A stretch of DNA of 64,000 bases. Source: Alphaproteobacteria bacterium. GTDB taxonomy: Bacteria > Pseudomonadota > Gammaproteobacteria > Burkholderiales > Burkholderiaceae_C. A program made the position numbers and the translations under genes. Below, piece by piece: positions 2,323 through 37,878 of this stretch. The notes below the pieces were generated by a model. It was not told the origin of the DNA and did not search any database. It saw only the letters and a list, made by a program, of their open reading frames with translations. The stretch is from positions 62,001 through 126,000 of the forward strand of contig JASGCM010000002.1 in assembly GCA_030054175.1 (NCBI GenBank), in the 5' to 3' direction. Position 1 is the stretch's first letter. Each line of letters starts with the position of its first letter.

Positions 2323-2907
2323 TTAAACCCATCCCAATAGGCCCAGTGCGGCGCCCATGGCCAAAAGCCACAACAAATGCACCCGGGTGCGCAACACCAT
2401 CCAAACAGTACCAGTCATCAACAGCCAAAGACCCCAGTCTTGGGGCAGGTCATCGTGCCGGGCTTGCATGAGCCACCCGGTGGAGGTCATGAGCCCAATC
2501 ACGATGGGGGCCATGCCTGATTTGAAGGCCCGAACGCCCAACCGTTCGCGTTCACGATGCAGCCACTGGGTGATGTTGTAGGTCAAGAAAGAAGAGGGCA
2601 ACAGGACGCAGGCCAGGCAAGCCAGAGCAAACAGCAAAGACGCCCCGACAGCCGCCCATCCGGCACCTAAACCGCCTTGTGCGTGCAAGGCCATGTTCCA
2701 GCCCATCAAGGCGACGAACATCACGTTGGGACCCGGAGCGATCTGGCCCAGCGCCACCGAGTTGACGAACTGATCGTCGCTGAGATATTGGTGCTCTTCA
2801 ACCAGAAAACGATGCATCTCGGGCAAGGCCGATATGGCTCCGCCGACCGCCATGAGTGACACGCCACAAAAATGCAAGCAAATCGGCCAGATCTCGGACC
2901 AACTCAT
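2323..2907 (-). CDS. Chromate transporter family protein (ChrA half, second)
   Basis: A 194-aa hydrophobic protein of the CHR family, single-domain type. It shows the family signature: a GGA-IS start to the first helix (SLMAVGGAISALPEM), the QIAPGPN motif near residues 54-60, and several membrane spans ending in a Leu-rich tail. Short ChrA proteins usually work as pairs of opposite topology, and this one overlaps its partner by ATGA (2904-2907). The start at 2907 makes that overlap; the reading frame extends upstream but into the partner. CHR proteins export chromate, but many genomic copies have unproven substrates. The surrounding SDR, ThDP enzyme and Bug protein suggest another anion, possibly an organic or sulfur acid; that is inference. 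Confidence 0.88.
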   Translation of the reverse strand: MSWSEIWPICLHFCGVSLMAVGGAISALPEMHRFLVEEHQYLSDDQFVNSVALGQIAPGPNVMFVALMGWNMALHAQGGLGAGWAAVGASLLFALACLACVLLPSSFLTYNITQWLHRERERLGVRAFKSGMAPIVIGLMTSTGWLMQARHDDLPQDWGLWLLMTGTVWMVLRTRVHLLWLLAMGAALGLLGWV

Positions 2908-3488
2908 GGGCGCCCCGCTGACTCGATGCGGCGCAACTGTCGGGCAGCCCATGCACAAGACAACCCGCCCAAACCCAGCAACACCCAAATCAGGGGCATG
3001 CGCAACAGGGCCACGCAGACGAAAGAAAGCCCGGCCCAAGCCAGACCCAAACCAAATCCCAAGGGGTTGCTGCGCAATGCCGGCAACAACTTCAACCCGG
3101 TGGCGATCACCATGCCCGCCACCACGGCACCCATGCCTCGCAATGCTGCCTGCGCCGCCCGAGTGTGGGCCACCGAATCGTAAAAGGCAGCCAAAGAAAG
3201 AGCCAAGGCCCCGGGGACCAAGAGCAAGCCTGCCAGGGAAGCCAAGGCGCCACGCAGGCCGAACTCCCGGGAACCGATCATGATGGACAGGTTGATCACA
3301 TTGGGACCCGGCAGGGCTTGCGCGACTGACCAGTCTTCGATGAATTGTTCACGCGTCAACCATTGTTGCTTATCGACCAGTTCACGCTGCACCACCGCCA
3401 ACACGCCGCCAAAGCCTTGCAAGGCCATCCACATGAACGAGAGGAATAAGTCGCGGCAAGAACGGGGCCGGGATGGCGCGGAGGTCAT
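2904..3488 (-). CDS. Chromate transporter family protein (ChrA half, first)
   Basis: A 194-aa half-size CHR transporter and partner of the following gene. It carries the [18 protein letters not shown] segment and the ALPGPN motif (about residues 58-63) that define the CHR domain, followed by four or more hydrophobic stretches and a short charged tail. It overlaps the SDR stop upstream by ATGA (3485-3488) and the next gene by ATGA, indicating translational coupling of SDR, ChrA and ChrA. Two adjacent non-identical halves are the usual arrangement of the short-chain CHR subfamily, so neither copy is truncated. Substrate unproven. Confidence 0.88.
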
Positions 3489-4234
3489 ACGGTCATGCCA
3501 CCCGAGACTTCCAACACCGCGCCATTGATATAGCCGGCCTCATCGCTGGCCAAAAAAGCGTAAACATTGGCAATGTCCTCGGGTTGACCCAGTCGCCTCA
3601 GAGGAACTCGTTCAGTCATCCCGGCAATCACTTTGTCAGGCATGCTGTCCAAAATGGGGGTTTGAACGAAACCCGGGGCGACTGCATTGACTCGGACGCC
3701 TTTGGGGCCCAATTCACGGCTCCACGTTTTGGTGAAACCAATGACGCCAAATTTGGTGGCAGCATAGTTGGTTTGACCAAAGTTGCCGTAAATGCCCACC
3801 ACCGAAGAGGCATTCAGGATGACGCCTGCGCCTTGAGCGACCATGGTTTCACTGACGGCTTGAGCACAATGAAAGACGCCTCGAAGATTGACGTCGATGA
3901 CCTGGTCAAACTGCTCCAAGGTCATTTTTTGCAAGCGTGCGTCTTGAGTGATCCCCGCGTTGTTGACCAACACATCGATGCGGCCCCACTCGCTCAATAC
4001 CCTCTGAACCATGGCGTCGACCATGTCGCGCTGGGTCACGTCAACCACCAGCCCCAGGGCCTGCCCCCCGAGTTGACGGCATTGCTCAGCGGCAGCATCG
4101 ACATGCTGTTGCCTGATGTCGCATGCAACCAACGTGGCGCCTTCACGGACAAATTTGAGCGCGGTGGCCAGACCGATTCCCTGGCCCGCGCCAGTGATGA
4201 TCGCAACCTTGCCCGCCAGCCTGGGGGTACTCAT
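3485..4234 (-). CDS. Short-chain dehydrogenase/reductase, FabG-like
   Basis: A 249-aa classical SDR. The Rossmann motif TGAGQGIG is at residues 14-21, the NNAG motif at 91-94, structural Asn115 in DVNLRGVF, and the catalytic Ser144/Tyr157/Lys161 set (NASSVVG, YAATK) is complete. The protein resembles acetoacetyl-CoA/3-oxoacyl-ACP reductases (FabG/PhaB). It is the first gene of a minus-strand operon running through two CHR genes, the ThDP enzyme and the Bug receptor. No acyl carrier or fab genes surround it, so a role in oxidising or reducing a small hydroxy/keto substrate in that operon is more likely than fatty-acid synthesis. Substrate unknown. Confidence 0.87.
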
Positions 4235-33731: not shown

Positions 33732-34769
33732 CTATTGTGCCTTGCCCTGAGCGCTCTGGCGACGCAATTGGTAGCGCTCGACGGCGGCATTGTGAGCGGC
33801 CAAATCGTCGCTGAATTGGCTGCTGCCGTCGCCTCTGGCGACGAAGTAAAGCGCGCGGCTGCTGGCGGGTTGCACTGCGGCCATCAAAGAGGCCTTGCCG
33901 GGCAAGGCGATCGCCGTGGGGGGCAGCCCGATGCGGGTGTAGGTGTTCCAAGGGTGATCGGTGCGCAGGTGGATGCGCTTGAGGTTGCCGTCAAAAGTCG
34001 GCCCCAAGCCATAAATCACCGTGGGGTCGGTTTGCAAGGGCATTTGGACGCGCAAGCGGTTGTGAAACACCGAGGAAATCATGGCCCGGTCACCGGCTCG
34101 TCCAGTCTCTTTCTCGATGATGCTGGCCAATATCAGTGCTTGCTCTGGGGTTTGCAGTCGTTGGACTGGGGCACGGGCCTGCCAGGCTTGCGCCAAATGT
34201 TTGTCCATGGCCCGCAAAGCCCGTTGGTAGATACGCAGATCAGGACTGCCCTTGCCGTAGGTGTAGGTGTCGGGATAAAAGCGCCCCTCGGCGGTCAGCC
34301 CAGCTCGCCCGAGTCGTGCCATCAATTCGGCATCGCTCAGGCCCAGGGTGTCATGGCGCAAGCCCTCGGATTGGTCGATCAGGCGACGCATTTGGGCCAA
34401 CGTCCAGCCCTCAGGCACCGTCAAAGCGCGCAGGCTTTCGTCGCCACGCACCAGTTTTTGCAGCAAAAACCAGGGGCTGGTTTCGCGCCCCAATTCATAG
34501 CTGCCGGCGCGCAAACGGCGGGCCTGCCCGCTGAGGCGAAACATCAGCCACAGGGCCTGGGGCGACACCTCAACCCCGCTGTCTGTCACGGCCTGAGCCA
34601 CGCCGCGCACCGATGTGCCGGGCTCTATCGATAAATCCACCGTGTCGGCGGTCAAGCGCATGGGGGCCATCAACCAATACATCACCAGTGCCAGGACCAA
34701 AAAGATGCCGGTGCTCAGCCCCAACAGCCAGCGGGTGAGTTTGTTGCGGTTTTGAGTCCTTCTTGCCAT
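33732..34769 (-). CDS. mltG: Endolytic transglycosylase MltG
   Basis: A 345-aa inner-membrane lytic transglycosylase that cleaves nascent glycan strands. One N-terminal membrane helix ([20 protein letters not shown]) is followed by the LysM-like and YceG domains. The catalytic Glu lies in [16 protein letters not shown], and [18 protein letters not shown] is a strong YceG signature. The first 57 bp of the gene and its upstream region lie in the left copy of a 113-bp duplication (34713-34825). Only the left copy keeps the working mltG start (ATG 34769); the right copy has a stop after two further codons. Confidence 0.93.
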
Positions 34770-34825
34770 GCCAATCTTTCACTCGGCATGATAATTCAGC
34801 CCTGTCTGATTTCCCACAACCCGCC
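34713..34825. repeat. 113-bp direct repeat, left copy (mltG 5' end plus ygfZ start region)
   Basis: This sequence matches 36141-36253 at roughly 90 percent (about 10 mismatches by eye, no gaps). It contains the functional mltG start on the minus strand. The ygfZ start it carries is ruined: CTG instead of ATG at the position equivalent to 36230. Its right end (ACAACCCGCC) is where the inserted gene segment begins. Confidence 0.85.
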
Positions 34826-34829
34826 TTGA

Positions 34830-36056
34830 TTGAACTTTGCCGGAATCACGGGAGTCGTCAGGGAAATTCAACTCCAATCAAACTTTGCGGACCTCGGGGG
34901 ACTCGGGGCAGTTAGCACCCGACGTGCCCTCAGTAATGTCGCACCGCTTTACGAGGCCCTTAGATTGCACCCAAATGCCACGGAACATGAAGTGGCAACT
35001 GCCTCCAGAGTGATCGACCAGCTTAGACTGCGGCAAGAAGGCGCTGCGCCAGCACCCGACAACGGTGACAACGGTGACACCGGTGGTCCTTTTGACACGT
35101 TAAAACAGGTCTACCAGGATTTGCGTGGTACCAGTGCCACCTTTGCCAAGGTGGATTTGTCGACGACCTCGCGTGAGATGCTAGAGCGTTTGCGCAATGA
35201 TGTGCAGCTGGCGACCCTTCCCTATACAGTGCGGCGGCCTGAAGACTCAGGGGTAGACCTTGTGGCCACCACAGATTTTGCCGAGAAACTCAATGCCCGG
35301 TTGCAAACGCAGCTGCAAGGGGTATGGGGGACTCCTGTGCCCAGTGGTGCGATCCCTAACCAGGGCGATCCTGCCCTTTTGGGGCAGTTCATCGACCGCA
35401 GGTCGGGACTGACCGCCAATGTGCTGGTGGACTCAGGCAAAAAAGAAATCAAAGTGGTGTTCGGCGGGACCACAGCAGGCTTGGTCAAAAGCGACAGTTT
35501 TTTCACACGCTGCAAAGACAACTTTGTCAGCACCCTGAGCCAGTGGAGCAGCAACCTCAAGGTGGGACTGGGTTTCAAGGCCCATTCCCTGAAGCAGGCG
35601 GCCAATCTGACGGCGCAGGTGGTGGAATTGGTTCAAACTGATCCCGCTTACCGGAACCAGGACTACACCGTCAGTACAGTGGGCCATGGGCAAGGATCTT
35701 CCGAGGCGGTTTTTGCGGCCTTGTCGTTGGATGTGCCGTTGAAAGCCACAGGCTTTTCCTCGGCTGACCTGAGTGGGCGTTTGGTGCGCGGGTTGCCTGA
35801 GGCGAACGTGGCGCGCGCCAAGGAACTGGTCAGCCATGTCCATGTGAGGGGTGACATTGTGCCCAATTTGCGCTGGGTGATGCACCACATGCGGCCTCTG
35901 GGTCAGGAGTCGGTGGTCCCCGCCTTGGGTGCTGCCGGGCCGCTGAGCCGAAATGATGAATTCGCCACCCACATCACGGCGCATCTGAATACGCTTCTGG
36001 CTGGGTTGCCCCAGGCCCAGGCCCAAGCCCAGCCTGATCAAATCGGCGGACAGTGA
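34830..36056 (+). CDS. Unknown protein with lipase-3-like region, inserted between mltG and ygfZ
   Basis: A 408-aa protein I cannot name. The middle and C-terminal half resembles class 3 lipase/alpha-beta hydrolase folds: KKEIKVVFGGTTAG as the oxyanion strand, VSTVGHGQGSSEAVFAALSL as the nucleophile elbow and VHVRGDIVPNLR as the acid-strand equivalent. At the elbow Gly287 stands where lipases have Ser (GHSxG), so it is probably not a normal hydrolase. An acidic Pro/Asp/Gly linker lies near residues 75-87. No signal peptide is seen. The only start is TTG 34830, immediately after an in-frame TGA and without a clear Shine-Dalgarno, so the 5' end may be truncated. The C-terminus ends in QPDQIGGQ, shared with the 50-codon ORF downstream. 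It is an effector- or toxin-like candidate only. Confidence 0.6.
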   Translation: MNFAGITGVVREIQLQSNFADLGGLGAVSTRRALSNVAPLYEALRLHPNATEHEVATASRVIDQLRLRQEGAAPAPDNGDNGDTGGPFDTLKQVYQDLRGTSATFAKVDLSTTSREMLERLRNDVQLATLPYTVRRPEDSGVDLVATTDFAEKLNARLQTQLQGVWGTPVPSGAIPNQGDPALLGQFIDRRSGLTANVLVDSGKKEIKVVFGGTTAGLVKSDSFFTRCKDNFVSTLSQWSSNLKVGLGFKAHSLKQAANLTAQVVELVQTDPAYRNQDYTVSTVGHGQGSSEAVFAALSLDVPLKATGFSSADLSGRLVRGLPEANVARAKELVSHVHVRGDIVPNLRWVMHHMRPLGQESVVPALGAAGPLSRNDEFATHITAHLNTLLAGLPQAQAQAQPDQIGGQ

Positions 36057-36146
36057 CCTGCCTCTCGGTCCGAGGCAGCCCAGTTCTGCTCCAGACCGAT
36101 GGCTGTGACGACGCAGCAAAGGCGGACGCGATCCGATCGGGCTCAG
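35989..36146. repeat. 3'-end module, copy 1 (C-terminal codons plus downstream non-coding DNA)
   Basis: From AATACGCTTCTGGC to GCTCAG this stretch aligns with 37315-37453. It covers the last 22 codons of the unknown protein and about 90 bp beyond its stop, with small indels. The conserved non-coding words include ACCGATGGCT and GACGACGCAGCAAA. Similarity extends past the stop, so this is a duplicated DNA unit and not only a protein motif. Confidence 0.75.
36058..36078 (+). terminator. Hairpin just after the unknown gene
   Basis: CTGCCTC-TCGGTCC-GAGGCAG is a perfect 7-bp stem 2 bp after the TGA of the unknown gene. There is no T-run. The related module downstream has a different stem at about the same place (GTCCAGA/TCTGGAC near 37389-37408), so structure there may be kept while sequence is not. 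Confidence 0.35.
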
Positions 36147-36253
36147 TCCCAACAGCCAGTGGGTGAGTTTGTTGTGGTTTTTAGTCCCTCATGCCATGCC
36201 AACCTTTCACTCGGCATGATAATTCAGCCATGTCTGATTTCGCACAACCCGCC
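36141..36253. repeat. 113-bp direct repeat, right copy
   Basis: Partner of 34713-34825. This copy holds the working ygfZ start (ATG 36230). Its remnant of the mltG 5' end is dead: after ATG on the minus strand the frame meets a stop two codons later. The two copies bracket the inserted unknown gene. Confidence 0.85.
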
Positions 36254-37141
36254 CTGAGCTTGCAGGGTACTTGTCCCCTGCCCCACCTGGGTGTGATCCG
36301 TTGCCAGGGCGAGGACGCTGCGCGTTTTTTACACAACCAACTCACCAACGACGTTGAATTGCTCCCCGTGGGCCAAGCCCGACTGGCCGGCTTTTGCAAC
36401 GCCCAGGGACGGCTGCAAGCCACCTTTGTGGTCTTCAAACACGCGGCCGAAGAGGTTTGGTTGATCACCCGACGCGACCTGTTGCCGCGAACCCTGAAGC
36501 GCTTGACGATGTTCGTGTTGCGAGCCAAAGTCAAACTCAGCGACATCAGCGAGCAACAGGCCGTGTGGGGCTTGGCGGGCGAAGACATGCGAGCGCTCAG
36601 CGAGACCCCGCTGCCCCCCTGGGCCACGCTGGCTCTGCCCCAAGGCGTGGTGATTGGGCTGTATCCGGTAGGTGAACAACCGCGTGCGCTGTTGTTGCCG
36701 CAAGCCGAATGGCCTTTTCAAGCCACCATCACCCAGGACGATTGGCTGGCGGGTGAAGTGCTTGCCGGTGTGGCCGACGTGCAGGAAGCCACCTTTGAAG
36801 CCTTTGTACCGCAAATGCTCAACCACGAGTCTGTGGGTGGCGTGAACTTCAAAAAGGGCTGCTACCCCGGCCAAGAGGTGGTGGCGCGCAGCCAGTTCAG
36901 AGGCACTTTGAAGCGGCGCACTTTCGTGGTGCAAAGCGCCGCTCCTATTGCGGCTGGCACCGAAGTGTTCGCAGGCACCGAATCTTGCGGCCAGATCGCG
37001 CAGTCGGCCCCCTTGCCTCAAGGCGGTGGCGTGGCGCTGGCTTGCCTGCTTCTCAGCCAAAGCGGGCGCGACGATTTGCAGGCCGAAGGACTCGCCCTTC
37101 GGGTTTGGCCTCTGCCCTACCCCTTGCTTCAGGACATTTGA
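36230..37141 (+). CDS. ygfZ: Folate-binding protein YgfZ
   Basis: A 303-aa YgfZ/GcvT-like protein that uses a folate to support Fe-S cluster assembly or repair. The signature KGCYPGQEVVAR places the key Cys at residue 211, and the N-terminus has HLGVIRCQGEDAARFLHNQLTNDV and FCNAQGRLQATF. The start at ATG 36230 (MSDFAQPALSLQ) lies in the right copy of the 113-bp repeat; the longer frame from 36191 is repeat sequence. In relatives ygfZ typically sits head to head with mltG, which is the arrangement the insertion has interrupted here. Confidence 0.92.
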   Translation: MSDFAQPALSLQGTCPLPHLGVIRCQGEDAARFLHNQLTNDVELLPVGQARLAGFCNAQGRLQATFVVFKHAAEEVWLITRRDLLPRTLKRLTMFVLRAKVKLSDISEQQAVWGLAGEDMRALSETPLPPWATLALPQGVVIGLYPVGEQPRALLLPQAEWPFQATITQDDWLAGEVLAGVADVQEATFEAFVPQMLNHESVGGVNFKKGCYPGQEVVARSQFRGTLKRRTFVVQSAAPIAAGTEVFAGTESCGQIAQSAPLPQGGGVALACLLLSQSGRDDLQAEGLALRVWPLPYPLLQDI

Positions 37142-37218
37142 CCCTCATTGCGTCGGTTGACTGCGGCGCTGGACCAAAGAATTGTAACAACCGACGATTC
37201 TCTTCAAGAGAAGAAACG

Positions 37219-37371
37219 ATGAGCGAAGAATCGATGAAGCGCATTCGCAGAGAGATGTCCACGCAACTGGGGCAAGCTCTGAAACCCCAAGATGGCATGC
37301 TGTTCCTGGCTGACAATACGCTTCTGGCCGGGTTTCCCCGGCCCCAGCCTGATCAAATCGGCGGGCGGTGA
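37219..37371 (+). CDS. Small 50-aa ORF sharing the C-terminal module of the unknown protein
   Basis: A 50-codon ORF beginning MSEESMKRIRREMSTQLG and ending NTLLAGFPRPQPDQIGGR. The last 18 residues match the end of the 408-aa protein (NTLLAG, then QPDQIGG), with the difference of a six-codon deletion in the Pro/Gln stretch. An AGAGAAG ribosome-site candidate precedes ATG 37219, within a hairpin TTCTCTT-CA-AGAGAA. It may be a small real gene or the 3' remnant of a second family member fused to a new start. The first 32 residues (basic, amphipathic) match nothing I recognise. Confidence 0.5.
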   Translation: MSEESMKRIRREMSTQLGQALKPQDGMLFLADNTLLAGFPRPQPDQIGGR

Positions 37372-37453
37372 CGTGCCCGACCCGAAGCAGTCCAGATCTC
37401 CTTCTGGACCGATGGCTCTGACGACGCAGCAAATGCGTTGCATTCGGGCTCAG
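37315..37453. repeat. 3'-end module, copy 2
   Basis: Copy of 35989-36146, covering the last 18 codons and stop of the 50-aa ORF and about 80 bp beyond, ending at the same GGCTCAG that ends copy 1. The final bases overlap the stop of the convergent GNAT gene. The remainder of the 308-bp space after ygfZ (37142-37218) shows no feature. Confidence 0.75.
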
Positions 37454-37878
37454 AGCTTGCAGACCATCTCCACGTGATCGATGCCGGCCTCGGTGAAGAC
37501 CTCGCCTTGGGCAACGAAGCCCTCGCGCTCGTAAAAACCACGGGCACTGAGTTGCGCGTGCAATCGCACCTGGTGGTCGCCACGCTCGCGTGCCACGGCC
37601 ATCAGGCCGCGCAAGACCTGTCGACCGTGGCCCCGGCCCCGCATCGATGCCTGCACTGCCATGCGCCCTATGCGTGCCACGCCGGGGGCGCGTTGCAGCA
37701 AGCGTCCGGTGGCCAGCACATGCCCGGACTGATCTTGCCAGACCCCGTGTACCGCGCTGATGTCTTCATGGTCCCACTCCAACTCTTGGGGCACCCCTTG
37801 CTCGCGCACAAAGACTTCGGTGCGCAAGGGAGCCGCCAAAGCCTGCATTTCGTTCCAGTGTCCGGTCAGCCAGATCAT
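37450..37878 (-). CDS. GNAT family N-acetyltransferase (ElaA-like)
   Basis: A 142-aa acetyltransferase. The N-terminus (LRTEVFVREQGVPQELEWDHED) and the acetyl-CoA binding motif IGRMAVQASMRGRGHGRQVLRGL (Q/RxxGxG/A type) are clear, as is the C-terminal GFYEREGFVAQGEVFTEAGIDHVEM. The last codons run into the GGCTCAG end of the repeated module, so the natural C-terminus may have been altered. It overlaps the esterase stop by ATGA. Substrate unknown. Confidence 0.88.
   Translation of the reverse strand: MIWLTGHWNEMQALAAPLRTEVFVREQGVPQELEWDHEDISAVHGVWQDQSGHVLATGRLLQRAPGVARIGRMAVQASMRGRGHGRQVLRGLMAVARERGDHQVRLHAQLSARGFYEREGFVAQGEVFTEAGIDHVEMVCKL

Follow-up and report, generated by a model that had tools for sequence, protein, structure and literature searches.

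Tandem duplication followed by random loss (TDRL) is commonly invoked to explain rearranged gene orders, above all in the mitochondrial genomes of animals. In bacteria, gene-order change has been argued largely from models, because duplication with complementary loss tends to erase itself. The duplications considered under the SNAP model are said by Brandis and Hughes 2020 (PMC7055797) to comprise tens to hundreds of genes, to arise by direct-repeat recombination and to be kept by selection. The same authors state that direct empirical evidence for SNAP-caused rearrangements in modern species was still lacking and that a finished SNAP event leaves no unique feature, and they suggest a search of chromosomes for intermediate steps. 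Brandis 2021 (PMC8046335) counts duplication followed by asymmetric loss among the possible mechanisms and leaves the matter undecided.

The locus described here lies within a window of 64 kb (the whole stretch of DNA analyzed, 64,000 nucleotides) and, with a probability of roughly 0.85, is the relic of a gene-order change that proceeded via tandem duplication and complementary loss. As in TDRL, a multi-gene tandem copy, complementary loss, a new order of neighbours and leftover pieces between the genes can be recognized. Unlike mitochondrial TDRL, the locus belongs to a bacterial chromosome, the unit consists of two genes, the junction and the relics are still legible and the join was made at a microhomology. 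The locus also resembles SNAP as outlined in PMC7055797, in that the copies made by duplication each lost different genes, the arrangement would have been trapped and a new order arose; unlike the SNAP duplications, however, the unit measures a few kb and the join 6 bp. Since SNAP requires that a duplication be kept by selection for gene dosage in a new niche, the locus is classed as a case of the duplication and complementary-loss kind and not as SNAP.

No bacterial case in which both relics and the junction are preserved was noticed in a literature search of titles and abstract openings, which extended to few subscription journals and does not prove absence. The locus constitutes a trace of the kind that the SNAP authors urged looking for (PMC7055797). 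If the reading is true, it would provide direct sequence evidence for a process which, according to the same source, leaves no unique trace when finished, and one that was started here by microhomology and not by direct-repeat recombination. The signature is searchable and could be counted across genomes: two repeat pairs that interlock as L...R-L...R, genes lost in a complementary fashion, and a short junction common to both pairs.

The left neighbour at the locus is an intact mltG (YceG-like; 33732-34769, minus strand; Pfam YceG, E 2.9e-78). An intact ygfZ (36230-37141, plus strand; Pfam GCV_T, E 5.7e-13) is followed by a convergent gene for a GNAT acetyltransferase (37450-37878, minus strand; Pfam Acetyltransf_10, E 1.7e-14). 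Between mltG and ygfZ lies a 408-codon frame with a class-3 lipase fold (34830-36056, plus strand; the assignment includes a VIA-align second look), here termed gene X.

The initial annotation had proposed that the mltG-ygfZ junction be compared among relatives. A ygfZ match was obtained in 35 of 40 other genomes of the genus (36 of 41 with the own genome), and the comparison covered 29 loci among the ygfZ matches listed (30 listed, with the own locus excluded). In 27 of these 29 listed loci, mltG and ygfZ are divergent neighbours with a start-to-start distance of 10-250 bp, the other two having no mltG match in the fetched stretch, while neither X nor the 50-residue X relic described below was detected in any of the 29. 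The ancestral state is accordingly one mltG/ygfZ start region that lacks X, and the simplest view is that X was added in this lineage.

GNAT is an inconstant neighbour of ygfZ. In 8 of the 29 listed loci the two genes are convergent and 15-76 bp apart, and in 6 others GNAT is found 812-1421 bp away (one convergent, five not); in the remaining 15, no GNAT match was present within the fetched stretch. In the locus of the best-scoring ygfZ relative (L005), an esterase-like gene and then GNAT stand behind ygfZ on the ygfZ strand, and in three further loci (L006, L019 and L022) GNAT and then an esterase-like gene follow in convergent orientation. The gene order behind ygfZ has been altered more than once in the genus.

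The mltG start, the intergenic region and the ygfZ start are present twice in direct orientation, at 34713-34829 and 36141-36257 (repeat L). The two copies are aligned over 117 nt without gaps, with 107 identical positions and 10 differences (8.5%). This repeat is far above chance: the next-highest ungapped match of the 117-mer in the 64-kb window, on either strand, was 52/117, and the one other ungapped direct repeat of at least 40 nt in the window is 46 nt long and 72% identical. A query spanning 34713-36253 matched the own genome (3.1 Mb) only at its own place and at the second X tail, which follows ygfZ, such that repeat L occupies no additional place in that genome. An assembly artefact is an unlikely source of the copies, because they differ from each other and sit inside a 191-kb contig.

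Copy 1 of repeat L retains a working mltG start and a relic of ygfZ, in which the ATG has become CTG and the homology stops after 9 codons. The CTG is a derived state, since ygfZ starts with ATG in all eight of the printed junctions of relatives, as read by eye. Copy 2 carries the intact ygfZ with its working start, together with a dead mltG relic in which the ATG persists and codon 3 is TGA. Most of what the initial annotation had described at this level is thus borne out. The duplication, given there as 113 bp with about 10 differences and no gaps, is real and slightly longer; the left copy, with a working mltG start and CTG in place of the ygfZ ATG, is as it was read; an open reading frame indeed occupies 34830-36056 between the copies; and the mltG start of the right copy, beside ygfZ, was rightly called dead in effect, given the early stop codon.

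A second direct repeat, absent from the initial annotation, was found at 35988-36146 and 37315-37453 (repeat R, plus strand). It contains the last 18 codons of X, the X stop codon and the DNA from there to the GNAT stop codon, its first copy forming the right end of the duplicated unit. A local comparison by BLAST over 35988-36124 gave 107 identical columns of 138, with 16 gap columns (E 5e-26), and the repeat was carried on to a GCTCAG motif by global alignment and by a 19-nt repeat at 79%. In the non-coding tail, 15 of 81 bases differ (18.5%) and 3 indel events are evident, as against 10 of 117 in the mltG/ygfZ part; the divergence between the copies is therefore uneven. Since the X tail and the DNA downstream of it also occur between ygfZ and GNAT, X would originally have been located downstream of ygfZ, within the duplicated unit. 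The presence of the X tail beside GNAT thus points to ygfZ-X-GNAT as the probable ancestral order; neither this order nor an intermediate was found in any genome, X itself being unmatched at E 0.001 in the 83 further genomes of the genus.

These data bear directly on the origin of the flanked gene, for which the initial annotation had suggested either a tandem duplication with subsequent cassette capture or an undescribed insertion mechanism. The tandem duplication stands, but capture or insertion at the site is unnecessary, because X, as its tail behind ygfZ indicates, already lay downstream of ygfZ. The 113 bp, previously taken for a target duplication, are therefore what remains of the left end of the duplicated unit. 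The insertion of a cassette between mltG and ygfZ, with a target duplication of about 113 bp, would account for a direct repeat that flanks a gene, but it leaves the X tail and the copy of the downstream DNA behind ygfZ unexplained, gives no reason for the right flank of X to match the DNA before the GNAT stop, and finds no mobile-element family for X or for the two antisense ORFs that accompany it. The repetition, moreover, is not confined to the target, as would be expected of a transposon or cassette, in that the X tail and its flank recur behind ygfZ. A cassette with a long target duplication is for practical purposes ruled out by the second repeat pair. The more ordinary reading that replaces a new insertion mechanism is also the more informative one, for the locus is a legible record of bacterial gene-order change.

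It could further be supposed that an X-bearing element was inserted on two separate occasions, once on each side of ygfZ, and that the right insertion decayed. The X tail and about 90 bp are indeed found on both sides of ygfZ. Such insertions would nevertheless account neither for the 117-bp repeat of the mltG/ygfZ region nor for the common GCTCAG junction, and X has no other full match in its own genome; we consider this alternative highly improbable.

The motif GCTCAG marks the ends and the join of the duplicated unit. It occurs in mltG at 34713-34718 (the left parental breakpoint), where the identity of repeat L sets in, and at the stop codon of GNAT at 37448-37453 (the right parental breakpoint), where repeat R ends. 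At 36141-36146 it forms the recombinant junction of unit copies 1 and 2: the X-tail homology ends at 36146 and the mltG homology begins at 36141, such that the R parent is matched up to, and the L parent from, one and the same 6 bp. The run shared by the parental sites is exactly 6, the flanking bases on either side being different. Among random pairs of sites 500-3500 bp apart in the 64-kb window, a shared run of at least 6 was observed at a frequency of 0.0021 (200,000 draws). The two repeat pairs interlock, as L-X-R followed by L-ygfZ-R, which is the order predicted by tandem duplication, and both meet at 36141-36146, i.e., the copies stand in direct tandem order and share one common junction. 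The losses are complementary: the body of ygfZ is found only in copy 2, while copy 2 retains of X its last 18 codons and, probably, its N-terminus.

The architecture of the junction also bears on merodiploidy, in which a diverged relative that carried X behind ygfZ would have supplied a second copy, and this copy would have recombined beside the resident one before complementary loss. The copies differ by 8.5% in repeat L to 18.5% in the non-coding tail, which exceeds the expectation for a very recent duplication, and mixed ancestry would be compatible with the uneven divergence. In contrast, the 6-bp microhomology at the ends of the unit, with no extra DNA at the junction, points to an internal duplication, and no X-bearing relative was encountered among the other 83 genomes of the genus. 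Merodiploidy is thus considered unlikely, although it is the least improbable of the alternatives.

According to the preferred reading, tandem duplication with complementary loss, we infer that this lineage first acquired X at a position between ygfZ and GNAT, which converge. The segment between mltG codon 18 and the stop codon of GNAT, which included ygfZ and X, would then have been duplicated in tandem, by joining of two GCTCAG sites with no bases added; the footprint of this step, in the junction and the relics, is directly visible. Copy 1 would subsequently have lost nearly all of ygfZ, undergone the change of its start codon and probably also lost the 5' end of X, while copy 2 would have lost the middle of X, with the frame still open, and its extra mltG start would have gained a stop; the end state of these losses is seen in the present sequence, their succession and any selection upon them being reconstructed. 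X thus came to lie between mltG and ygfZ because copy 1 lost ygfZ and copy 2 lost X. With ygfZ now confined to copy 2 and X to copy 1, any collapse of the duplication would presumably have cost a gene, and the new order mltG-X-ygfZ-GNAT would thereby have been fixed.

The frame of X in copy 1 opens with a TTG, immediately preceded by a TGA where repeat L ends, and its first in-frame ATG is codon 117; the native 5' end has probably been lost from this copy. The relic in copy 2 is a 50-residue frame (37219-37371, plus strand), in which 32 residues run on without a frameshift into the final 18 codons of X. The sequence AAGAGAAG is located upstream of its ATG. Because they are fused in frame to the X tail, these 32 residues are assigned to X and probably represent its original N-terminus. 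The relic was matched at E 0.5 or better in 52 of 399 genomes of the family (own included), the best match elsewhere (E 0.011) being taken as noise, and it has no convincing relative among these 399.

By codon score, the X frame is favoured over codons 131-408 (0.116 and 0.212) but not over codons 1-130 (0.002, versus 0.016 on the opposite strand). Neutral decay was simulated under several rates. With the divergence of the repeat only and no indels, the 408-codon frame remained open in 21% of cases, and codons 116-408 alone in 33%. When repeat and tail were pooled and indels included, the full frame was open in 0 of 5000 simulations and codons 116-408 alone in 0.12%, figures obtained from 198 aligned bases under an assumed model of neutral change; with the rates of the tail alone, none of 5000 was open, for the full frame and for codons 116-408 alike. 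The results are mixed, but the pooled simulations would argue for constraint on X after the duplication.

Promoter-like matches were observed at 34763-34795 and 36196-36223, i.e., in both copies of the mltG/ygfZ start region, and 3 such matches were found in 34600-37600 versus 0.5 expected. A promoter directed into X may still be present in copy 1. A broader proposal, to which we give somewhat less than even odds, is that the locus represents a completed yet legible gene swap in a bacterial chromosome, started by microhomology and with the unit ends, the junction and both relics preserved in ~2.7 kb, and that the event perhaps also converted a lipase to a protein that is non-catalytic but was retained, with the duplicated start region of ygfZ driving its expression.

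A 7-bp hairpin (GTCCAGA/TCTGGAC) is located at 37390-37409, in the non-coding stretch that separates the X relic from GNAT. The folding of 37372-37449 gave z -2.84 on the plus and -1.65 on the minus strand, and the copy behind X (36057-36142) folds otherwise, with no hairpin (z -1.00). The hairpin may be terminator-like and decayed in copy 1; a scan of 34600-37600 returned no terminator-like sites (shuffles, mean 4.1).

Gene X has the Lipase_3 fold but lacks the GHSxG serine and the histidine of an active lipase. It differs from the class-3 lipases (Lipase_3/Mbeg1-like) in that the position of the catalytic Ser is Gly287 and that of the family His is Asn375, while Asp342 of the triad is retained. 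All 14 aligned homologues have Ser and His at these positions; the Ser count is biased, GHSKGGGE having been the search pattern, and the His count is unbiased. The alignment comprises 14 of 20 homologue loci (L066 and L074, with long frames, and L078-L081, weak or short, were omitted), and three of four homologues from a separate set (L034, L035 and L036) are not independent of it, since by their translations they seem to be the same genes as L062, L067 and L065. Among the 16 loci from whole-genome searches, 12 have GHS in an open frame and 4 have no such motif. Because a lipase fold is combined with the lack of the catalytic Ser and His, X appears to be either a descendant that no longer acts as an enzyme or a gene far advanced in decay.

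At E up to 1, weak matches to X were obtained in 24 of the other 83 genomes of the genus (best 0.006), and a first scan of genome contigs confirmed no further occurrence. The two antisense ORFs (127 and 239 residues), which lie within X or overlap its end, had no Pfam or PHROGs match at E up to 1. A mobile-element origin was also considered and rejected: neither X nor the two antisense ORFs matched a PHROG, the phage records reached noise level only (5 records, best E 0.7), and no occurrence of X was confirmed in viral contigs by a search that finds close relatives only. Four plasmid records were listed, with one good match, from Arsenophonus nasoniae (E 1e-9), which is a distant family member and not the source of X.

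Homologues of X occur in environmental genera as well as in several others, which we take to be host-associated. Active members of the X family may be secreted effectors. The injectisome secretin model TIGR02516 gave 4 matches in the own genome, the best at 114.6 versus a cut-off of 238.45 bits, and since none of 14 control genomes passed this cut-off, the comparison has no positive control. No secretion genes were recognized among 9 chosen neighbour ORFs at four homologue loci, 4 of the 9 being without any family. One X homologue (L036, 1330-2655) adjoins an ORF (2788-3549) that by eye resembles a leucine-rich-repeat protein. Elsewhere in the own genome, on contig C34, two secretin-like matches at 125330-126142 (plus strand) and 169511-170323 (minus strand), 44 kb apart, have equal scores and E-values, and this pair may be an inverted duplication.
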